Shown here piece by piece: positions 49,088 to 63,102 of a DNA stretch of 64,000 nucleotides (positions are counted from its first letter, which is position 1; each line of letters begins with the position of its first letter). The position numbers and the translations under genes were made by a program. The notes below the pieces were generated by a model. It searched no databases. It saw only the letters and a list, made by a program, of their open reading frames with translations, and was not told the origin of the DNA. The stretch lies in assembly GCA_020161615.1 (NCBI GenBank), contig JAIUPD010000002.1, positions 434,001-498,000 of the forward strand, written 5' to 3'. The DNA is from Pseudomonadota bacterium (GTDB taxonomy: Bacteria; Pseudomonadota; Alphaproteobacteria; Rhodobacterales; Rhodobacteraceae).

Positions 49088-50242
49088 TCAGAGGCAGGCC
49101 TCGAACAGCGCGCGGGTATTCTCGGCATTCATCTCGATGGGATTGCCGCCGCAGGAGGGATCCTCCAGCGCCATCTCGGTCAGCGTGGCGAGGTCGGGGT
49201 TGGTGACGCCCAGCGCGGTCAGGTTGGCCGGGATTGCCAGCGTCGAACGCAGGTCCATCACCGCCGCGCGGAACCCCTCATACCCGCCCGCGATGCCGAT
49301 ATAGGCGGCGGCACGGCTCAGGCGCTCCTCGATGGCCGGGCGGTTGAAATCCAGCACCATCGGCATGACCACCGCATTCGTGGTGCCGTGATGGGTGTTG
49401 TAAACCGCGCCGATGGGATGGCTCAGCGAATGGATCGCGCCGAGGCCCTTCTGGAAGGCGACGGCCCCCATGGCGGCGGCGGACATCATATGCGCGCGGG
49501 CCTCCAGATCGCTGGGATTGGCATAGACCTTCGGCAGGTTCTCGAACACCAGCCGCATCCCTTCCAGCGCAATGCCCTGCGACATCGGGTGGTAGAAGGG
49601 GCTGCAATAGGCCTCGAGACAATGCGCCAGCGCGTCCATGCCGGTCCCGGCGGTGATGAAGCGCGGCATCCCCACGGTCAGGGCCGGGTCGCAGATCGTG
49701 ACCTTCGGCATCAGCGCCGGGTGGAAGATGATCTTCTTCTTGTGCGTCGTCGCATTGGTCAGCACCCCCGCGCGCCCCACTTCCGAACCGGTGCCGGCGG
49801 TGGTGGGGACGGCGATGATCGGCGCGATCCTGGCGGCATCGGCGCGGGTCCACCAATCGCCGATATCCTCCAGATCCCAGACACTGAGGGACGCCGGTTG
49901 CCCCGCCATCAGCGCGATCATCTTGCCCAGATCCAACGCCGAGCCGCCGCCGAAACAGATCACCCCGTCATGCGCGCCCGCCTTGTAGACGGCAATACCG
50001 GCGGCCATGTTCGCCTCGGTCGGGTTGGCGTCGACCTCGGAGAAGAGGGCTTTGCCAAGCCCGCCCGCCTCCAGCACCGCCAGCGCCTCGGCGGTGATCG
50101 GCAGGGCGGCCAGCGCCTTGTCCGTGACCAGCAAGGGCGCTTTCATGCCGACCGCCTTGGCGTGATCGGCCAGTTCCTTGACGCGCCCCACGCCGAATTT
50201 CACGGCCGTAGGGTAGGACCAGTTCATGGTGGGGACGTTCAT
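49088..50242 (-). CDS. Iron-containing alcohol dehydrogenase
   Basis: Group III Fe-dependent NAD(P) alcohol dehydrogenase (384 residues). NAD-binding GVICFGGGSALDLGKMIAL, PTTAGTGSEVGRAGV, and the iron ligands in TAGTGMDALAHCLEAY, AIHSLSHPIGAVYNTHHGTTNAVV. ATG 50242 overlaps the aldehyde dehydrogenase stop (ATGA). It is the last gene of the 49-58 kb catabolic cluster, where it would oxidise an alcohol to the aldehyde taken by its neighbour. Confidence 0.92.
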   Translation of the reverse strand: MNVPTMNWSYPTAVKFGVGRVKELADHAKAVGMKAPLLVTDKALAALPITAEALAVLEAGGLGKALFSEVDANPTEANMAAGIAVYKAGAHDGVICFGGGSALDLGKMIALMAGQPASLSVWDLEDIGDWWTRADAARIAPIIAVPTTAGTGSEVGRAGVLTNATTHKKKIIFHPALMPKVTICDPALTVGMPRFITAGTGMDALAHCLEAYCSPFYHPMSQGIALEGMRLVFENLPKVYANPSDLEARAHMMSAAAMGAVAFQKGLGAIHSLSHPIGAVYNTHHGTTNAVVMPMVLDFNRPAIEERLSRAAAYIGIAGGYEGFRAAVMDLRSTLAIPANLTALGVTNPDLATLTEMALEDPSCGGNPIEMNAENTRALFEACL

Positions 50243-51624
50243 TTCGTGACCTTCTTCAGATGGTAAGACTTCGGCCGCGTGACCGATTGATAACCCAGCG
50301 CCGACAGCGCGGCGCCCCGGCCGGTATCCTTGCAGCCGGTCCAGCACAAGGCCGGGTCGAGATAGTCGCAGCGGTTCATGAACACGGTCCCCGTCTCGAT
50401 CCGCGCGCCGATCTCGGCGGCGACCTCGGCATCGGCGGTCCAGATCGAGGCGGTGAGCCCGTAGTGGCAATCGTTCATCAGGGCGAGGGCTTCCTCGTCG
50501 TCTAAGACCTTCATGATCCCGACCACCGGGCCGAAGCTTTCCTCGGTCATCACCCGCATGGAATGGTCCACATTGACCAGGATCTGCGGCGCCAGATAGG
50601 CGCCGCCGTCATCGGCGGGGAAAAGCGCGGGGTCGATCAGGGGCTTGGCGCCGGCGGCCACGGCCTCGGCCACCTGCTCGCGCACGATCCGTGCGAAACG
50701 GGCATGAGCCATCGGGCCGAGGGTGGTTTCCGGCTCGAACGGGTTGCCGAGCTTCAGCGCCTTCACCCAGGCGACCGCCTTCTCGACGAAGGCGTCGTAG
50801 AGGCTCTCGTGCACATAGATCCGCTCGATCCCGCAGCAGCACTGGCCCGCGTTGAACATGGCGCCGTCCATCAGGCTGTCCACCGCCGCATCGAGGTCGG
50901 CATCGGCCCTGACATAGCCCGGGTCCTTGCCGCCCAGTTCCAGCCCGACCCCGGTGAAGGTGCCCGCCGCCGCCTTCTCGATAGCCACGCCGCCGCCCAC
51001 CGAGCCCGTGAAGTTGACGAAGCCAAAGGCCCGGGCGCCGATCAGGGCCTCGGTCGTGGCATGGTCCAGCACGACGTTCTGGAACACATCCGCCGGAACG
51101 CCCGCCTCGGCCATGGCCATGCCGATCCGCTCGCCCACCAGCAGCGTCTGCGAGGCGTGTTTCAGCACCACCGCATTGCCTGCGATCAGCGCCGGGACAA
51201 TCGTGTTCATCGCCGTCATGTAGGGATAGTTCCAGGGCGCGATGACCAGTACCACGCCCACCGCTTCCCGCGCGATGTAGCGGCGGAAGGTGGCGCCATC
51301 CTCGATCATGGTGGGCGCCAGCGCCTCGGCTGCGATGCTGGCCATGTAGCGCGAACGCTCGTTCATGCCGCCGAATTCGCCGCCATAGCGGGTGGGGCGG
51401 CCCATCTGCCAGGCCAACTCCTCGACCACCGGCGCTTTCATCGCGTTCAGCGCCTCGACCCCGGCCATGACCAGCGCGATGCGCTCGTCCAGCGGGCGCG
51501 CGGCCCAGGCCTTCTGCGCCGATTTGGCGCGGGCGGCGGCGGCCCGGGCCTCGGCCAGGGGCAGGGCGGGCCGCTCGGCATAGATCCGCCCGTCGACGGG
51601 CGAGAGGCATTGGATGGTCGTCAT
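50239..51624 (-). CDS. NAD(P)-dependent aldehyde dehydrogenase
   Basis: Aldehyde dehydrogenase (461 residues). Coenzyme motif VIAPWNYPYMTAMNTIVPAL, VNFTGSVGGGVAIEKAA, general base Glu in LELGGKDPGYV, catalytic Cys in FNAGQCCCGIERIY (three adjacent cysteines), and EESFGPVVGI. It is coupled to the alcohol dehydrogenase gene downstream. Substrate unknown; in this cluster a gamma-glutamylamino aldehyde is a reasonable guess. Confidence 0.92.
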   Translation of the reverse strand: MTTIQCLSPVDGRIYAERPALPLAEARAAAARAKSAQKAWAARPLDERIALVMAGVEALNAMKAPVVEELAWQMGRPTRYGGEFGGMNERSRYMASIAAEALAPTMIEDGATFRRYIAREAVGVVLVIAPWNYPYMTAMNTIVPALIAGNAVVLKHASQTLLVGERIGMAMAEAGVPADVFQNVVLDHATTEALIGARAFGFVNFTGSVGGGVAIEKAAAGTFTGVGLELGGKDPGYVRADADLDAAVDSLMDGAMFNAGQCCCGIERIYVHESLYDAFVEKAVAWVKALKLGNPFEPETTLGPMAHARFARIVREQVAEAVAAGAKPLIDPALFPADDGGAYLAPQILVNVDHSMRVMTEESFGPVVGIMKVLDDEEALALMNDCHYGLTASIWTADAEVAAEIGARIETGTVFMNRCDYLDPALCWTGCKDTGRGAALSALGYQSVTRPKSYHLKKVTK

Positions 51625-51683: not shown

Positions 51684-52268
51684 CTAGGGATTGGTCCGCC
51701 GGATCGGCCCGCAGAGGCCCCGGGCCCGCTGCGCGCCGCAGTCAATGCGGAAGCTTGCGTCGAGATCGCCCTGATCGACAGTGCGGAACCGGCCGTCGAT
51801 CCGCCCCGCGCAGCCGTTGTCGCCGTCGATCCCGTAGCGCACCAGCACATGCACCACGTCGAAGCGGTCGGTCGGGCAGCAGGCCTCGACCCGCACCCGG
51901 TCCAGAAGGCTGTCCTGCCCATGCGGCAGATGCGGATAGATGCCGACCCAGCGCGTCCAGTTCATGCGGCTGTTGCCGCCGATGGAGGATTGGCAGGCCG
52001 CCGGGATGGCATGGTTGCGCCGCTCGGCCCAGAGCGCGCCGATACAGGCCCTCAGCGCGCCATGGGCGTTGACCCGGCACTGGTTCGGCCGCCCGTTCGA
52101 GCAGGTGCCCGAGGCGTCCATCTCGATCAGGCGCTGGAGATTGTTGTAAATGTTTGGCCCCATGACGGCGATGCTGGCGCGGCAGCCGCGGCTGATATCG
52201 GCGCTGGCGGGGGCGGCAAGGGTCAGGGCAAGCCCGGCCGCAGCCAGGGCGGAGAAACGTCTTTTCAT
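51684..52268 (-). CDS. Cysteine-rich secreted protein of unknown function
   Basis: An unrecognised 194-residue protein with a signal peptide (MKRRFSALAAAGLALTLAAPASA). The mature part has about nine cysteines (RGCRAS, GTCSNGRPNQCR, LRACIG, PAACQSS, EACCPTD, NGCAGR, IDCGAQ, GLCGP), so disulfides in the periplasm are likely. ATG 52268 is chosen because TGAGG lies 7 nt upstream; ATG 52280 lacks one. It lies on the same strand between the aldehyde dehydrogenase and the glutamine-synthetase-like genes, with 59- and 217-nt gaps. Confidence 0.75.
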   Translation of the reverse strand: MKRRFSALAAAGLALTLAAPASADISRGCRASIAVMGPNIYNNLQRLIEMDASGTCSNGRPNQCRVNAHGALRACIGALWAERRNHAIPAACQSSIGGNSRMNWTRWVGIYPHLPHGQDSLLDRVRVEACCPTDRFDVVHVLVRYGIDGDNGCAGRIDGRFRTVDQGDLDASFRIDCGAQRARGLCGPIRRTNP

Positions 52269-52485
52269 GACAAACCTCATGTCAGGCCGCCCCGGCCCGG
52301 ACCGGACAGAGGCGGGTTTCAATGAGGAGGAGAGTATCATTTTTCGCCGCTCCGGCCCAGACACGGGTCCGCGACCCGGCCTGCCCGCGGCGCGCAGGGC
52401 AGGGTGCTGCCCGCCGCCGACCGGGGGCAGGGCCGTCCGCTCAACAGGGTGCCGGGGCTGCGCCATGCTGCAGGGGTCCCGGGGC

Positions 52486-53853
52486 TCAGGCCTGTTCCAG
52501 GCCCCGCTTCAGCTCCCAGTCGGTGACGACCCGGTCGGCCTCGGCGATTTCCCAGCGGGCGGCGTGAACGTAGTGATCGACCACCGCCTCGCCCAGCGCG
52601 CCGCGCAGCCAGACCGAGCTTTCGGCCAGATCCGCCGCCTCGCGCAGCGTCTTGGGGATCTCCCGCGCGCCCTGGGCGGCGTACATGTCGCCCTTCAGTT
52701 CCGGCTCCAGCGTCAGCTTCTGCTCGATCCCGTCGAGCCCCGCGGCAAGAAGCGCCGCGCACGCGGTATAGGGGTTGAGGTCGGCGCCCCCGATCCGGCA
52801 TTCGACCCGCACGCCCTTGGTGCCCGCCCCGCAGACCCGGAAGCCCGCGGTGCGGTTATCGGCCGACCAGACGGCCTTGGTGGGCGCGAAGAGCCCGACG
52901 CAGAAGCGCTTGTAGCTGTTGACATAGGGCGCCAGGAACAGGGTGATGTCCCGCGCATGGGCCAGCTGGCCGGCCAGGAAATGCTTCATCAGCTCGGACA
53001 TGCCATGCTCGTCCGCCTTGTCGGCGAAAGCCGCCTCGCCGCCCGTGGTCCAGAGCGACTGGTGGACATGCGAGGACGAGCCCGCCTTGTCATGGTGATA
53101 CTTGGCCATGAAGGTGACCGATTTGCCCATCGCATGGGCGATCTCGCGCGTGGCGGCCTTGGTGATCGTGTGATGGTCGGCGGTGGTCAGGGCATCGGCG
53201 TAGCGGATATTGACCTCGGCCTGGCCCGCCTCGGCCTCGCCCTTGGTGTTCTCGACCGGGATGCCCGCGCCGTAAAGCCCGTTCCTCAGGGCCCGCATCA
53301 GCGGCTCTTCCTTGGTGGTCTGGAAGATGTGGTAATCCTCGTTGTAGCCCGAGATCGGCACGAGGTTCTGGAAACCCTTGTCGCGGAACTGCTCATAGCT
53401 GTTCTCGAAGACGAAGAATTCCAGCTCTGTCGCCATCATCGCGTCATAGCCCAGCGCCTTGGCCCGGGCGATCTGGCGCTTGAGGATGGCGCGGGGGCTG
53501 ACGGCGATTTCCTCATGCGTGTGGTGGTCGAGCAGATCGCAAAGCACCAGCGCCGTGCCCGGAAGCCAGGGCACCCGGCGCAGCGTCGCCAGATCGGGCT
53601 TCATCAGGTAATCGCCATAGCCCTGCGCCCAACTCGCCGCCGCATAGCCCGGGACCGGATTCATCGCCATGTCCACGGTCAGCAGGTAATTGCAGCAATG
53701 CGTCTCTTCCCAGCCGTGGCCAAGGAAATGCGCGGCATGGAAACGCTTGCCCATCAGCCGCCCCTGCATGTCGATGCCGGCCACGACCACGGTGTCGATC
53801 TCGCCGGCCTCGAAGGCCGCGCCCAGGGTTTCCAGCGTCAGATATCCGCTCAT
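52486..53853 (-). CDS. Glutamine-synthetase-family ligase (gamma-glutamyl-amine ligase type)
   Basis: GS-fold enzyme (455 residues) of the PuuA/GlnA3-like group that joins glutamate to an amine. Metal and ATP sites: MMATELEFFVFENS, GEAEAGQAEVNIRYADAL, FMAKYHHDKAGSSSHVHQSLW, then PTKAVWSADNRTAGFRVCG and VECRIGGADLNPYTACAALL. The adenylylation-site tyrosine region of true GlnA is absent. Its neighbours (alcohol and aldehyde dehydrogenases, amidohydrolase, TRAP importer) suggest gamma-glutamylation of an imported amino alcohol or amine. Confidence 0.88.
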   Translation of the reverse strand: MSGYLTLETLGAAFEAGEIDTVVVAGIDMQGRLMGKRFHAAHFLGHGWEETHCCNYLLTVDMAMNPVPGYAAASWAQGYGDYLMKPDLATLRRVPWLPGTALVLCDLLDHHTHEEIAVSPRAILKRQIARAKALGYDAMMATELEFFVFENSYEQFRDKGFQNLVPISGYNEDYHIFQTTKEEPLMRALRNGLYGAGIPVENTKGEAEAGQAEVNIRYADALTTADHHTITKAATREIAHAMGKSVTFMAKYHHDKAGSSSHVHQSLWTTGGEAAFADKADEHGMSELMKHFLAGQLAHARDITLFLAPYVNSYKRFCVGLFAPTKAVWSADNRTAGFRVCGAGTKGVRVECRIGGADLNPYTACAALLAAGLDGIEQKLTLEPELKGDMYAAQGAREIPKTLREAADLAESSVWLRGALGEAVVDHYVHAARWEIAEADRVVTDWELKRGLEQA

Positions 53854-53881: not shown

Positions 53882-53981
53882 TCCCATCATCTTGCCTGAA
53901 ATACTCACGGGGTTTGCAAAGGGGCCCGTGGGCCCCTTTGGCGGGGGGTGCGGGGGGCTGGCCCCCCGCTTTCCCCGGTCA
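53882..53981 (-). repeat. 3'-end repeat cassette, copy D
   Basis: Follows the distal TGA of the TRAP binding-protein gene on the minus strand. GCGGGGGGC/GCCCCCCGC hairpin (53950-53969), the CCCCCCGCACCCCC block, a perfect AAAGGGGCCC/GGGCCCCTTT hairpin (53918-53939), then CCCGTGAGTATTTCAGGCAAG. The hairpin takes the place of the TTCAAGG stem of copies A and B with all pairs kept. Confidence 0.75.
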
Positions 53982-55016
53982 CGAATAGCGGTAGGGCCGC
54001 CCGGCGCGGTCCATGGCCGCGTTGTAATCCTTGAAGATCTGCACGACCCGCGCCTTGGTCTCGCTTTCCGCGCCGATTTCGTCCCAGAAGGTCCGCGCCG
54101 CGGTTTCGACGGTCGCCCATTCGGCATCGGGGATCGCCGTCAGTTCCAGCTTGGTGCCCTCGGTCCGGTAGCGCGCCTCGCCCGCCCAGTACCAGTGCTA
54201 GCGGTAGTAATGCGACTGCTCGAAGCAGGTCGCGACCAGATTCTGCAGCTTCGGCGACAGTTCGTTCCAGCGGTCCATGTTCGAGAAGAAATGCCCGATC
54301 CAGGCGCCCGAGATGTTGTTGGTCAGGAAATGGCTGGTGACATCGGCCCAGCCGACCGTATAGGCCTCGGTCGCGCCGCACCAGGCCACGCCGTCGATCT
54401 CGCGCGTCTGCAACGCGATCTCCACATCCTCCCACGGCACGGTCACCGGCACCACGCCGAACTGGCTGAGGAAGCGCCCGGCGGTCGGGAAGGTGAAGAC
54501 GCGCTTGCCCTGCAGATCGGCCAGCGAGGTGATGGGCGAGGAGGTGATGAAATGGCAGGGGTCCCAGGACCCGGCCGAGATGTGCTTGACGCCCACCGCG
54601 GCATAGGCCTCGCCCCAGATCTCGTTCAGGCCCCAGTTGTTGAAGAGCGCCGGCACGTCCAGCGAATAGCGGCTGGCGAGCGGGAAATAACCGCCGAACA
54701 CCGTCACTTCCGTGGGGGAGGCCATGGAATCGTCGTCCGATTGCACGCAGTCAATGGTGCCGCGCTGCAGCGCCTGGAACAGTTCGCCCGTCGGCACGAT
54801 CTGATCGGCGTAATAGAGGTCGATCTGCATCTCGTCGCCTGCGATGGCGTTGAACATGTCGACCGCCGGTTTCACCACGAATTCGCCCAGCGCCGCGCCG
54901 GCATAGGTCTGCATCCGCCAGCGGATCGTCGATTGCGCATGGACCGCCGGGGCCGCCAGTGCCGCCGCGCCGCCCAGGGCGCTGGTGGTCAGGAACTTCC
55001 GTCTCGTCGTCGTCAT
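53979..55016 (-). pseudogene. TRAP transporter substrate-binding protein (DctP family) with in-frame TAG
   Basis: DctP-type binding protein: Tat signal (TTTRRKFLTTSALGG), IRWRMQTYAGAALGEFVVKPAVDMF, YADQIVPTGELFQALQRGTIDCVQ and WEDVEIALQTREIDGVAWCG. Codon 273 (54200-54198) is TAG after SHYYR. The same frame then runs 72 codons to TGA at 53981-53979 and stays family-like (HWYWAGEARYRTEGTKLELT ... YNAAMDRAGRPYRYS), with normal GC-rich codon use. One base change (GAG to TAG would fit SHYYREHWYW) explains it. A recent nonsense mutation, a sequencing error or read-through are the options. AAGGAG precedes ATG 55016. Confidence 0.88.
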
Positions 55017-55068: not shown

Positions 55069-56397
55069 TCAGGGATCATACAGCGTCTGCGGCATCCAGA
55101 GCGCGATTTGCGGGAAGATCATGATCAGCGCGAGGCCGAGGATCATCACCCCCACGAAGGGCACGATGGAGCGATAGATATCGGCCAGCGAGACCTCTTT
55201 CGGCGCCATGGCGCGCATCAGGAACAGGTTGTAGCCAAAGGGCGGCGTCATATAGGCGATCTGGCAGGTGATCGTGTAAAGGACACCATACCACACCAGA
55301 TCGAATTCCAGGGCCCGGACGATGGGCACGTAAAGCGGCGCCACGATCACCAGCATAGCGGTGTCATCGAGGAAGGTCCCCATCAGGATGAAGCTCAGCT
55401 GCATCAGGATCAGGATCTGCCAGCGGTTGAGGCCCAGGTCGGTGATGAACAGCTCGCGGACGAAATCCACCGCGCGCAGCCCGTCGAAGATCGCCCCGAA
55501 GGCCAGCGCCGCCAGGATGATCCACAGGAACATGCAGCTGACCGACAGGGTCTGCACCAGGCAGGTTTCCCACACCTGCCGCGTCATCCGCCCCTTGAAG
55601 GCCGAGGCGGCGACGGCGGCCAGCGCGCCGATGACCGAGCTTTCCACCAGCCGCGTATAACCCAGGATGAAGGGCACCATCATCACCAGGAAAATGCCCA
55701 GCGGCAGCACGCCCGCCAGAAGCAGCTTGTTCTTTTCGGCGCGCGAGATGCCGGCCCGTTCCTCGGCCGAAAGGACCGGACCCAGCGCCGGATTGATCCG
55801 GCAGCGCAGCCAGATATAGGCGATGAAGAGCGAGGCCATCAGCAGCCCCGGCAGGATCCCGGCGAGCCACAGCTGCGCCACCGGCTGCCGGGCGATCATC
55901 GCGTAAAGGACCATGACCACCGAAGGCGGGATCAGGATGCCCAGCGATGAGCCCGCCTGGATCACCCCTGTCACCATCCTCTTGTCGTAATTGCGTTTCA
56001 GCAGTTCCGGCAGCGCGATGGTCGAGCCGATGGCCATCCCCGCCACGCTGAGGCCGTTCATCGCCGAAATCAGCACCATCAGCACGATGGTCCCGATGGC
56101 GAGGCCCCCGGGCACCGGCCCGAACCAGACGTGGAACATCCGGTAAAGGTCATCGGCCAGCCGCGATTCCGACAGGACATAGCCCATGAAGATGAACATC
56201 GGCAGCGTGATGAGCGGGAACCAGTTCATCAGCTTGAACGCCTGTGAGAAGGCGATGTCATGTCCGCCCCGGTCGCCCCAGAGGAAGAGCGCGGCCACCA
56301 CGGCGACGAAGCCGATCACGCCGAACATCCGCTGTCCGGTCAGCATCAGCAGCAGCAGGCTGCCGAACATCAGCGCGGCGATCATCTCGGTGGGCAT
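55069..56397 (-). CDS. TRAP transporter large permease DctM
   Basis: Large membrane subunit (442 residues, about 12 helices) of a TRAP carboxylate-type importer. Marks: TLPMFIFMGYVLSESRLADDLYR, ISAMNGLSVAGMAIGSTIALPEL, GSSLGILIPPSVVMVLYAMI and TPPFGYNLFLMRAM. The start ATG overlaps the dctQ stop (TGATG). Both permease genes are intact, unlike the binding-protein gene 52 nt downstream. Confidence 0.93.
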   Translation of the reverse strand: MPTEMIAALMFGSLLLLMLTGQRMFGVIGFVAVVAALFLWGDRGGHDIAFSQAFKLMNWFPLITLPMFIFMGYVLSESRLADDLYRMFHVWFGPVPGGLAIGTIVLMVLISAMNGLSVAGMAIGSTIALPELLKRNYDKRMVTGVIQAGSSLGILIPPSVVMVLYAMIARQPVAQLWLAGILPGLLMASLFIAYIWLRCRINPALGPVLSAEERAGISRAEKNKLLLAGVLPLGIFLVMMVPFILGYTRLVESSVIGALAAVAASAFKGRMTRQVWETCLVQTLSVSCMFLWIILAALAFGAIFDGLRAVDFVRELFITDLGLNRWQILILMQLSFILMGTFLDDTAMLVIVAPLYVPIVRALEFDLVWYGVLYTITCQIAYMTPPFGYNLFLMRAMAPKEVSLADIYRSIVPFVGVMILGLALIMIFPQIALWMPQTLYDP

Positions 56398-56903
56398 CAG
56401 ATCTCCTCGCCTTTCAGGCGTCCGATGTCGCGGATGGTGAAGGCCAGGACCTGAAGGATCATCATCAGGATGCCCAGCACCATGATCGCCTTGACCGGCG
56501 CCATATAGGGCCGCCAAAGGCCGCGCCGCCGCTCGCCGTATTCCAGGGCGTATTGCAGGCTTTCCCACCCGCCCCAGAGCAGCACGATCAGGTAGAAGAG
56601 CAGCGAGCCCACGGTCAGGATATCGACCAGCGCCCGCGTCTTGTCGGACCAGCGCGAATAAAGCAGGTCCATGCGCACGGCCGAGCCCAGTTGCAGCGCA
56701 TAGGCGCCGCCGATCATGAAATAGCCCATGAGCAGGAACTGGGCCATTTCGTCGGTCCAGATCGGCGGGGTGCCGAAGGCCCGGGCCAGCGCGCCATAGA
56801 GCATGACCCCCATCAGGGCCAGCAGCGAATACATGGCGATCCGGCCGAAGAGCCAGTTGAACCTTTCGACCCAGCGGACATAGGCGATCAGGAATCCCGG
56901 CAT
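56397..56903 (-). CDS. TRAP transporter small permease DctQ
   Basis: Four-helix small subunit (168 residues). WTDEMAQFLLMGYFMIGGAYALQLGSAVRMDLLYSRW carries the conserved DE-x10-G region of DctQ. ATG 56903 overlaps the amidohydrolase stop; a GTG one codon upstream is possible. It works with the DctM next to it. Confidence 0.9.
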   Translation of the reverse strand: MPGFLIAYVRWVERFNWLFGRIAMYSLLALMGVMLYGALARAFGTPPIWTDEMAQFLLMGYFMIGGAYALQLGSAVRMDLLYSRWSDKTRALVDILTVGSLLFYLIVLLWGGWESLQYALEYGERRRGLWRPYMAPVKAIMVLGILMMILQVLAFTIRDIGRLKGEEI

Positions 56904-57739
56904 CACACGGCCCCCGTCGCGGTCAGCGCCGCCGCCAGCACCGGCGCCAGACGCTCGGCCATCGCCGCCTGCGCGGGGGCGTCGGCGATCAGGTCGTTGC
57001 GGATTTCCAGCATGGTGTTCGGCAGCCGCATCGGCACGGCGTGCAGGCGGATCGTGTGGGTCACGTCGCCGGCCGCCGAATAGGGTTCGTTCAGGCGGGT
57101 GTCCAGGCCGCAGCCCTTCGCCGCCTCGATCACCGCATGGGTCAGGGTCTGGTCGTCGTCATGGATCACCCCGAATTCGACCGCGCGCTTCATGCCGAAA
57201 TAGACCGGGGTGAAGGAATGCACGGCGATCAGCGCCGGGCGGCGGCCCCGGGCGACCAGCCGCGCGATCTCGGTGCCGAGGGTGGCGTGAAAGGGCAGGC
57301 AGATCGCCTCGGTCCGGGCCAGCCGGTCGGCAGGCGTCAGGCCTTTGTTGCCGGGAATTTCGTGGATTTCCGATTTCGCGGGCATGGCGGCGGGGTGGTC
57401 GGGTGCGCGGTTCAGGTCATAGGCCAGCCGCGACAGCGGTGCCGAGACCAGCACCGCGCCCCCCGCGACCGGCGCCAGCCGCGCCGCCAGGCCTCGCGCC
57501 AGGCCCAACGCGCCGATGTCCCAGGCGGCGTGCGATTCCCGCGCCTCGGCCGACAATCCCAGATCGCCGCCCAGCACCGGCCAGTCCAGCGGCAGCACGT
57601 TCGAGGCATGGTCGCAGATCAGCACCAGCCCCGCCGGTTCCGTGCCCGGGCCGGGCTGGCCCGCGGCATCCCACTGCTCCACCAGCCCCTCGAAACGCGG
57701 CAGAGGGGCGTCGGCGGCACGCAGAGCGGAGAGGGACAT
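56903..57739 (-). CDS. N-formylglutamate amidohydrolase family protein
   Basis: HutG/FGase-family zinc amidohydrolase (278 residues). Marks: GLVLICDHASNVLPLDW, ESHAAWDIGALGLA, APLSRLAYDLNRAPDHPAAMP, IAVHSFTPVYFGMKR and LPNTMLEIRNDLI. No hut genes are present, so histidine degradation is unlikely. As first gene of the TRAP/GS cluster it may cleave a gamma- or N-glutamyl amide and release glutamate. Confidence 0.88.
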   Translation of the reverse strand: MSLSALRAADAPLPRFEGLVEQWDAAGQPGPGTEPAGLVLICDHASNVLPLDWPVLGGDLGLSAEARESHAAWDIGALGLARGLAARLAPVAGGAVLVSAPLSRLAYDLNRAPDHPAAMPAKSEIHEIPGNKGLTPADRLARTEAICLPFHATLGTEIARLVARGRRPALIAVHSFTPVYFGMKRAVEFGVIHDDDQTLTHAVIEAAKGCGLDTRLNEPYSAAGDVTHTIRLHAVPMRLPNTMLEIRNDLIADAPAQAAMAERLAPVLAAALTATGAV

Positions 57740-57878: not shown

Positions 57879-58754
57879 ATGAACGACACGCCAGCGGATA
57901 CCCCCGAGACGCGCCTGCGCGCCGCCATGCCGGACCTGACCCGGGCCGAACGGCAGCTGGCCGCGCATATGCTGGGCAATTACCCGGTGGCGGTGCTGGG
58001 CTCGGTCGCCTCGGTGGCGCGGGGGGCCGGGGTCTCGGGTCCGACGGTGGTGCGGCTGGTGCAGAAGCTGGGCTATTCCGGCTATCCCGAGTTTCAGGCC
58101 CAGCTGCGCGAGGAGGTGGGCGAAAAGCTGGCCTCGCCCATCGCCAAGCGCGAGAAATGGGCCGGGGCGGGTGCTTCGGACCACGTGCTGGACGCCTTCG
58201 CCGCCAAGGTGGTGGAGAATGTGACCGCCACGCTGGGCCAGATTGACCACGCGGGTTTCGACGCAGTGACGGCGCTGCTGGCGGATCGCGAGCGGCGGAT
58301 CGCCATGCTGGGCGGGCGGCTGACACATCCGGTAGCGGAATATTTCGCCACCACCCTGCGCGTGACGCGGGGCGAGGTGAGCCTTTGGTCCAACCTGCCC
58401 AATTCCTGGCCGCCCGCCCTTCTGGACATGCGGGCGGGCGATGTGCTGGTGGCTTTCGACATCCGGCGCTACGAGGCCTCGGTCCTGCATATCGTCGAGA
58501 TGGCGCGCGCCCAAGGGGCCGAGGTGGTGCTGATCACCGACCGCTGGGTCTCGCCCGCCGCGGCCCATGCCCAGCATATCCTGCCTTGCCATATCGAGGC
58601 GCCTTCTGCCTGGGATTCGATCACCGCGCTGGTCATGCTGGTCGAGGCGCTGCTGGCCGGCGTGCAGAACCGCAGTTGGGACGAGACGGCGGATCGGTTG
58701 CGGCGTATGGAAGCCCTCTATGCCCGGGCGCAGCTTTTCCGCCGGGCGCGATAG
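57879..58754 (+). CDS. RpiR family transcriptional regulator
   Basis: HTH plus SIS domain regulator (291 residues). N-terminal HTH_6: LTRAERQLAAHMLGNYPVAVLGSVASVARGAGVSGPTVVRLVQKLGYSGYPEFQAQLREE. The SIS domain (~130-260) has AMLGGRLTHPVAEYFATTL and GDVLVAFDIRRYEASVLHIVEMA, although the sugar-binding serines are poorly conserved. It is divergent from the TRAP/GS cluster and probably controls it. Confidence 0.88.
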   Translation: MNDTPADTPETRLRAAMPDLTRAERQLAAHMLGNYPVAVLGSVASVARGAGVSGPTVVRLVQKLGYSGYPEFQAQLREEVGEKLASPIAKREKWAGAGASDHVLDAFAAKVVENVTATLGQIDHAGFDAVTALLADRERRIAMLGGRLTHPVAEYFATTLRVTRGEVSLWSNLPNSWPPALLDMRAGDVLVAFDIRRYEASVLHIVEMARAQGAEVVLITDRWVSPAAAHAQHILPCHIEAPSAWDSITALVMLVEALLAGVQNRSWDETADRLRRMEALYARAQLFRRAR

Positions 58755-61261: not shown

Positions 61262-61744
61262 ATGGCAGCGGTTAGTAAAGCGGATTTCCCCGGCACGCGC
61301 GCGCAGAAAAAGCGCGCCCTCAGACGGGATGCGGGGCTCACGCTGATCGAACTCATGGTGGTGGTGGTGATCTTGGCCCTGCTGGCGGTGGTCATCGTGC
61401 CCCGGGTCATCGACCGGCCCGATCAGGCCCGCGCCGCCCGGGCGCAGGCCGATATCGCCGCGATCACCGCCGCGCTGAACCTCTACCGGCTGGATACTGG
61501 CAGCCTGCCGACCACCGATCAGGGGCTGGCGGCGCTCGCCACCCGCCCGACCGCCGCACCCGTGCCGCAGAACTGGGCGCAGGGCGGATATCTGGAGCGC
61601 GTGCCGGACGATCCCTGGGGGCGGCCCTATCTCTATCTCTCGCCCGGGGTGCATGGGGATTTCGACCTCGTGAGCTATGGGGCCGACGGGCGCAGCGGGG
61701 GAAGCGGCGCCGATGCCGACATCACCAGCTGGCAAGGGCGATAG
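61262..61744 (+). CDS. gspG: Type II secretion major pseudopilin GspG
   Basis: Major pseudopilin (160 residues). Prepilin cleavage at AG|LTLIELMVVVVILALLAVVIVPRVI with Glu at +5. The C-terminal calcium-binding loop is DDPWGRPYLYLSPGVHGDFDLVSYGADG. The basic leader before the cleavage site is 25 residues, long for GspG, so a later start is possible. It overlaps gspH by 32 nt. Confidence 0.93.
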   Translation: MAAVSKADFPGTRAQKKRALRRDAGLTLIELMVVVVILALLAVVIVPRVIDRPDQARAARAQADIAAITAALNLYRLDTGSLPTTDQGLAALATRPTAAPVPQNWAQGGYLERVPDDPWGRPYLYLSPGVHGDFDLVSYGADGRSGGSGADADITSWQGR

Positions 61745-62213
61745 CCGCCTCCCCGCGCGGGGCTTCACGCTGATCGAATTGCTGGTGGTGGTGGCGATCG
61801 TCGCCATCCTGTCCCTGGGCGTCGGCCTTTCGGCGGGCGGGCTCTTTGCGCGGCCGGGCGCGGTCTCGGCGGCCGAGCGGCTGGTGCAGGCCGATCGCCA
61901 AGCGCGCGACCGGGCGCTTCTGGGCCGCGGCATGATCGGGCTGTTCCCGCGCGAGGACGGCTGGGCGCTGATGCACCGCACCGGAGAGGACTGGCAGTCC
62001 GAGGGCGCGGCGCTCACCCTCGGCGCCGCGCGGCTGTCCTGGGAGGTCGCCGGCCGACCCATTCTGCCCGGCCTCAACGGTCCCGGAGACGAGGCGCCGC
62101 CCGTGCAGATCGCCCCGGATGGCGGCAGCACACCCTATGCCGTCACCATCCTCAGCGGAAGCGCGCGACAGGTCTGCCGGGCTCCGGCCGGGGGGGCGCT
62201 GACATGCGAGTGA
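61713..62213 (+). CDS. gspH: Type II secretion minor pseudopilin GspH
   Basis: Minor pseudopilin (166 residues): ARG|FTLIELLVVVAIVAILSLGVGLSAGGLF and the H-type body with DGWALMHRTGEDWQ. ATG 61713 is preferred because GGGGAAG lies upstream; it starts inside gspG. Its end overlaps gspI by 10 nt. Confidence 0.85.
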   Translation: MPTSPAGKGDSRLPARGFTLIELLVVVAIVAILSLGVGLSAGGLFARPGAVSAAERLVQADRQARDRALLGRGMIGLFPREDGWALMHRTGEDWQSEGAALTLGAARLSWEVAGRPILPGLNGPGDEAPPVQIAPDGGSTPYAVTILSGSARQVCRAPAGGALTCE

Positions 62214-62557
62214 GGGGTTTCACCTTGATCGAACTGGCGGTGGCCGTGGCGATTCTGGCCATGGGGTCGGTCGCGGCCTATCGCAGCGTCGATCAGGCAC
62301 AGCGCGGCGTGGGGGGGCAACTGGACCGGGCGCTGGCGGCCGAGGTGGCGCTGAACCGCGCCGCGGAACTCAGGCTAGGGGGAATGCATGCCGGACGCCG
62401 CCTGCCCGATCGCGTGTCCCAGGGTCGCATCGACTGGCGCGTCACGGTCGAGGAGGCGGCAACCGCCTCCGGCATGATCGAGGCGACGATCCTCGTCTCG
62501 GCCCCGGGTCGTCCGGGTGCGAGTTTCGTCACCATCGTGCCACGGGAGCGGCGCTGA
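62204..62557 (+). CDS. gspI: Type II secretion minor pseudopilin GspI
   Basis: Minor pseudopilin (117 residues): VRG|FTLIELAVAVAILAMGSVAAYRSVD, then a short domain with GRIDWRVTVEEA. Length and position fit GspI. The stop overlaps the gspJ start by one base (TGATG). Confidence 0.85.
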   Translation: MRVRGFTLIELAVAVAILAMGSVAAYRSVDQAQRGVGGQLDRALAAEVALNRAAELRLGGMHAGRRLPDRVSQGRIDWRVTVEEAATASGMIEATILVSAPGRPGASFVTIVPRERR

Positions 62558-63102
62558 TGCGGCGCGGCTTTACCCTGATCGAGCTTCTGGCGGCGATGGC
62601 CATTCTCGCCGTTGTCTCGGTCATGGGGGTGCAGGCGCTGGGCGGCGTGTTTCAGCAGCGGGCGGTCCTGAACCGGGTCGATGATCGCTCGGCCGCGCTG
62701 ATCCGCACGCTGTCGGCGTTAAGGCAGGATCTGGAGGCAGCGCTGCCCCTGCCGACGACCGGCGGTCTGTCCGAAGCGGTGACCGCGGGAATCCGCGTCG
62801 AGCCGGGCCGTCTGGGCTGGATGCGGGGCGGGCTGGCCGATCTGCCGGGCGATCCGGCGACGGGCGCGGGCAGCGTCGAGTGGTCTGTCACCGAGGCACG
62901 GCTGAGCCGTCGGGCGATCCGGGTGCTGCCGGGCACCGGCGGTTCGTCGCAGGTGATGCTGGAGGGCGTCACCGCCCTGACCCTGGTTCCCCTGGGCCTG
63001 CCCGAGGGCGACGAGGCCGACCCCCGCCTGCTGGCGCCCGGCTATGAGGTGATGCTGGAGACCACGGAATGGGGTCGCCTCCGGCTGGTGGTGGCGCGAT
63101 GA
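62557..63102 (+). CDS. gspJ: Type II secretion minor pseudopilin GspJ
   Basis: Minor pseudopilin (181 residues): RRG|FTLIELLAAMAILAVVSVMGVQALGGVF, then IRTLSALRQDLEAALPLP and GLGWMRGG-like GRLGWMRGGLADLPG. The stop overlaps the gspK start (ATGA). Confidence 0.87.
   Translation: MRRGFTLIELLAAMAILAVVSVMGVQALGGVFQQRAVLNRVDDRSAALIRTLSALRQDLEAALPLPTTGGLSEAVTAGIRVEPGRLGWMRGGLADLPGDPATGAGSVEWSVTEARLSRRAIRVLPGTGGSSQVMLEGVTALTLVPLGLPEGDEADPRLLAPGYEVMLETTEWGRLRLVVAR

Follow-up and report, generated by a model that had tools for sequence, protein, structure and literature searches.

The window, that is, the whole stretch of 64,000 nucleotides that was analysed, carries a TRAP solute-binding-protein gene, very probably etoX to judge from its homology, which is interrupted by a single in-frame amber codon. 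A recent point mutation, in this strain or in a recent ancestor, most likely converted a conserved glutamine codon of the gene into this stop and would have knocked the gene out. The gene and its surroundings are as follows, with the basis of the assignments.

49088-50242, minus strand: iron-containing alcohol dehydrogenase, in the position of GETADH (profile match and operon order; start chosen by eye)
50239-51624, minus strand: aldehyde dehydrogenase, in the position of GAADDH (profile match and operon order)
52486-53853, minus strand: glutamine-synthetase-like protein, in the position of ethanolamine gamma-glutamylase, ETAGA (profile match and operon order)
53979-55016, minus strand: etoX reading frame, TRAP solute-binding protein of the ethanolamine type; 345 codons and a terminal TGA, interrupted at codon 273
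53982-54197, minus strand: the 72 post-stop codons of etoX, preserved and without extra damage (comparison with orthologues and with Pararhodobacter aggregans)
54198-54200, minus strand: in-frame TAG, codon 273 of etoX (translation and orthologue codons)
55069-56397, minus strand: etoW, large TRAP permease (DctM), without internal stop (start chosen by eye)
56397-56906, minus strand: etoV, small TRAP permease (DctQ), open frame
56903-57739, minus strand: N-formylglutamate-amidohydrolase family, in the position of gamma-glutamylglycine amidohydrolase, GGAH (Pfam and operon order)
57879-58754, plus strand: RpiR-family regulator (profile match and operon order)

Translation of 55016-53979 on the minus strand gives 272 residues, a TAG, 72 further residues and the terminal TGA, which bears out the lone in-frame TAG at codon 273 (54200-54198) reported in a preliminary description of this DNA. 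The same description had noted that the frame continues for 72 codons to a TGA with DctP-like residues, and indeed 86 of the 88 other loci compared likewise read on, with closely similar residues. Its statement that the neighbouring genes are intact holds as well: the dctM, dctQ, amidohydrolase, glutamine-synthetase-like, aldehyde dehydrogenase and iron-containing alcohol dehydrogenase genes are open frames with Pfam matches. A twin-arginine-type signal is found on the etoX protein (TIGR01409, 20.2 bits against a cut-off of 16.7). Against Pfam DctP (PF03480, gathering cut-off 23.4 bits) the 272-residue part scores 58.9 bits and the intact P. aggregans protein 65.0 bits, covering positions 20-231 and 20-284, respectively, of the 286 in the profile.

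The preliminary label 'dctP-like' was right at the level of the family and overlooked the ethanolamine type, EtoX. Given that PDB 4uab is the best solved relative and that gene families and order match the ethanolamine operon of Phaeobacter MED193, the gene very probably is etoX, which codes for the ethanolamine-binding subunit of such a transporter, and not a generic DctP. Indeed, 4uab aligns with the intact P. aggregans protein over its residues 27-344 at an E value of 2.3e-170 while the next chain stands at 1.7e-14, so that the closest solved relative is of the ethanolamine type, 4uab being the Chromohalobacter salexigens protein Csal_0678 in complex with ethanolamine. Csal_0678 is described as binding ethanolamine and as lacking the carboxylate-binding arginine found in most TRAP binding proteins (PMC4646407), and ethanolamine appears among the newly found TRAP ligands in another report (PMC5812351). 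For Phaeobacter sp. MED193 the published account gives the operon order RpiR, GGAH, EtoV, EtoW, EtoX, ETAGA, GAADDH, GETADH and reports ethanolamine binding by EtoX (MED193_10041) with a Kd of 7.9 uM (PMC10132767). The succession of families in the window agrees with this operon (RpiR, amidohydrolase, small permease, large permease, binding protein, glutamine-synthetase-like protein, aldehyde dehydrogenase, alcohol dehydrogenase), and its binding-protein gene thereby falls, by families and order, into the place of EtoX. Hence etoX would very probably encode the periplasmic ethanolamine-binding protein of a gamma-glutamyl ethanolamine-utilisation operon.

This arrangement recurs among the relatives. 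In the 61 loci longer than 8.7 kb, out of 80 from relatives, DctQ and DctM are same-strand neighbours in 61/61, the glutamine-synthetase-like protein, the aldehyde dehydrogenase and the amidohydrolase in 58 each and the alcohol dehydrogenase in 56/61, with flanks of 4 kb, so that absences may reflect the end of a locus. An extra open frame of 260 aa, without Pfam match, lies between the glutamine-synthetase-like and aldehyde dehydrogenase genes of the window (51684-52466, minus strand). A specialised ethanolamine permease that could bypass the TRAP system (TIGR00908) gave no match in the genome, a weak negative given that control genomes matched and none did so above the cut-off.

The codon that occupies position 273 in relatives was then read from 88 loci, comprising the best 80 of at least 590 confirmed relatives and 8 loci from the genus, the window's own locus excluded; they correspond to 85 distinct stretches, three pairs being the same sequence twice. 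All 88 have glutamine at this position (80 CAG and 8 CAA), in agreement with the Glu or Gln that had been anticipated, and a stop after residue 272 occurs in 0/88. The orthologues thus carry a conserved sense codon where the window has its stop, as expected of a nonsense pseudogene. Beyond codon 272, 86 of the 88 loci continue for a further 63 to 75 codons, with codon 273 included in the count; three meet the end of their contig after 9, 10 and 63 codons and the remainder run for 72 to 75 codons to a normal stop. Since the relatives read on, the protein has no natural end at residue 272, and the possibility that homologues all finish there is at variance with every one of these loci. Moreover, the region removed by the stop is strongly conserved among relatives.

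The distribution of the gene was examined at an E value of 1e-40 in the 12 genus genomes that are at least 90% complete: 8, this genome included, have etoX and 4 are without a match, and the gene is therefore accessory and dispensable in the genus. Outside it, an etoX that shares 78% identity with that of the window lies on contig JAFKDC010000017.1, whose title names Enemella evansiae TN21-6; Enemella evansiae is an actinobacterium, which suggests contamination or a mislabelled record. Two contigs titled as Saccharospirillum MAGs encode EtoX 84% and 82% identical to the window's, and given that Saccharospirillum is a gammaproteobacterial genus these would represent either horizontal transfer or mis-binning.

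The age of the stop was approached through the nearest relative, P. aggregans, whose gene shares 987 of 1038 bases with that of the window; the DNA of the window matches P. aggregans at 89.6-90.9% identity in five blast pieces. When codon differences were assigned to lineages with genome G005 as outgroup, 28 synonymous differences were placed on the window lineage after its separation from P. aggregans, 23 in the 272 codons before the stop and 5 in the 72 codons after it, and besides the stop there was no amino-acid change on this lineage. The other two amino-acid differences fall on the P. aggregans side, and six further synonymous differences carry no lineage assignment. The 72 post-stop codons taken separately show 8 synonymous differences from P. 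aggregans and 1 nonsynonymous one, which is on the P. aggregans side. With no amino-acid change other than the stop, constraint on etoX must have been strong until very recently.

Of the three origins put forward in the preliminary description, the one with most support is a very recent nonsense mutation, with glutamine in all 88 of the compared loci (the best 80 of at least 590 relatives and 8 from the genus), a single transition and no other damage. A single-base G:C to A:T transition would have made the glutamine codon TAG, and the ribosome would terminate at codon 273, leaving a 272-residue product without the last 73 residues that probably could neither fold nor dock with the permease. 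A product of this kind would cost the strain its high-affinity ethanolamine uptake, and the enzymes would be kept. The removed C-terminal part is conserved and belongs to the solved protein, which makes loss of etoX function by its removal likely.

A second interrupted DctP gene is present in the genome, which comprises 26 contigs and 4.87 Mb and holds 37 DctP matches in a profile search. It lies on contig 16 (59593-60699, plus strand) and has a single TGA at codon 126. The P. aggregans counterpart, identical at 1047 of 1107 bases, has TGG at this position, and tryptophan was found in 9/9 genus relatives compared, four further close matches falling outside this set. This counterpart is nearest to 4pet and to 2hzk, the 2-keto-acid binder TakP, and reaches 4uab at only 1.3e-11, which places the contig-16 gene in a DctP subfamily other than that of etoX. 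The gene is otherwise preserved and its permeases look open (DctM at 61423-62736 is without stop). Internal stops thus affect 2 of the 37 DctP matches, etoX with TAG and the contig-16 gene with TGA. No stop was found in the same genome among 267 matches to four control families, namely ABC_tran (0/133, with 150 of 198 candidates scored), BPD_transp_1 (0/74), DctM (0/43) and SBP_bac_5 (0/17), nor among the 128 DctP matches of four relatives. A genus-wide search with 458 DctP matches in 18 genomes, of which the strongest were listed, had a stop in one of the matches listed, the contig-16 gene. Fisher tests gave 0.014 for 2/37 against 0/267 and 0.049 for 2/37 against 0/128, values that are suggestive only, the tests having been picked after the result was known and domain length being ignored.

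The good state of the rest of etoX is also expected of a stop that is suppressed or that derives from an error, and both readings were weighed. Suppressed or programmed read-through, yielding full-length EtoX despite the amber codon, would be consistent with the full constraint on the remaining gene and with a second binding-protein gene bearing a lone stop, though that one is TGA. Release factor 1 is present (TIGR00019, 472 bits against a cut-off of 423) and TAG is an ordinary terminator that ends 30 of 200 surveyed genes. An Rfam search returned 41 tRNAs, all 41 named by ARAGORN (30 + 11); none has a stop-reading anticodon (CUA, UUA, UCA) in this list, which is incomplete, with one tRNA-Gln (ttg) and without tRNA-Tyr, tRNA-Ile(gat) and tRNA-Ala(tgc), so that a suppressor could be among the tRNAs missed. 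When ARAGORN was run again, on overlapping stretches that add up to 2.2 Mb, it gave 32 tRNAs, none of them stop-reading and none of the three missing types, which were probably missed by the search or lie in unassembled regions. The 86 nt beginning just before the stop fold worse than shuffled sequences (z 1.10), 170 of 200 shuffles being at least as good as the native sequence, so no structural signal was seen after the stop. Furthermore, a stop conserved among relatives, as read-through would lead one to expect, is found in 0/88 of the other loci (again the best 80 of at least 590 relatives and 8 from the genus). Read-through or a change of code was hence rejected as the main reading on the release-factor, tRNA, orthologue and RNA-fold results; this part of the preliminary description found no positive support, and full-length synthesis across the amber codon is very improbable. 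Even more improbable is a natural C-terminal shortening in which the 272-residue product still works as a binding protein. Such a product would keep its signal peptide and the larger part of the DctP domain, but none of those 88 loci ends at residue 272, the region removed is strongly conserved, and the alignment of 4uab over residues 27-344 means that this region belongs to the solved protein.

A sequencing or assembly error, the real genome having a sense codon and an intact EtoX, agrees with a single substitution seen in one assembly and with the undamaged remainder of the gene. The frequency of internal stops bears on this reading, and 507 kb of the genome were surveyed against 500 kb of P. 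aggregans, keeping non-overlapping frames in which synonymous differences exceed nonsynonymous ones; these filters were needed, antisense frames and upstream start extensions otherwise swamping a homology survey. The survey is not a random sample, because contigs 6, 16 and 17 were picked for holding DctP genes. Among 196 non-overlapping gene-like frames, 5 had an internal stop in this genome and two of these, etoX and the contig-16 gene, were judged genuine. The other three were set aside: a frame antisense to a Rieske-oxygenase-like frame (named by eye), without Pfam match; an upstream start extension of a phosphotriesterase-like gene (named by eye); and a weakly checked frame of 178 aa with two stops, judged antisense by eye only. 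Seven more frames had stops only near an end and were read as start-site differences. In the reverse direction, 200 frames gave internal stops in 3 and near-end stops in 4 for P. aggregans. Three P. aggregans stretches, on C9, C11 and C4, contain stops where the genome of the window keeps the frame open, which may be differences of frame or start. A codon-usage scan over 315 kb listed 5 places and recovered neither known interrupted gene, so that its positive controls failed. Internal nonsense codons are thus rare in this assembly, with two judged genuine in 196 frames and none among the 267 control-family matches, and the assembly error suggested earlier is the less likely origin; on balance we consider an error unlikely.

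With a recent nonsense mutation as the preferred reading, the event is of an ordinary kind in a well-described operon, and the one surprise is that a second TRAP binding protein is broken as well. Two TRAP binding-protein nonsense alleles with open partner genes could have arisen by chance, through a relaxation of selection during culture or because costly binding proteins were selected against. A tentative and rather doubtful idea is that the two genes, each silenced by a single fresh nonsense codon with the permeases intact, reflect selection that repeatedly removes costly periplasmic binding proteins, perhaps while the strain was being isolated or cultured, or else a shared stop-suppressing state. 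None of the papers in the library searched joins a premature stop codon with a TRAP transporter solute-binding protein, and none is on a TRAP transporter nonsense mutation in experimental evolution. For annotation and physiology, high-affinity ethanolamine uptake should be defective in this strain despite a complete-looking operon, and ethanolamine use predicted from gene content alone would be wrong for it. If binding-protein genes are repeatedly lost by point mutation, as the second broken gene hints, this would matter for estimates of how frequently genomes are credited with a transport capacity that they lack.

Compared with known systems, the solved protein of PDB 4uab/4xf5, deposited under the name Twin-arginine translocation pathway signal, is intact, whereas the window's gene is interrupted. 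The window likewise differs from the MED193 operon in the premature stop of its etoX copy, the likeness between the two being one of families and order, and the substrate being predicted. As for recent bacterial nonsense pseudogenes in general, they share with the present case a single lineage-specific stop in a frame otherwise preserved; this genome stands apart from them in having two of its TRAP binding-protein genes affected.
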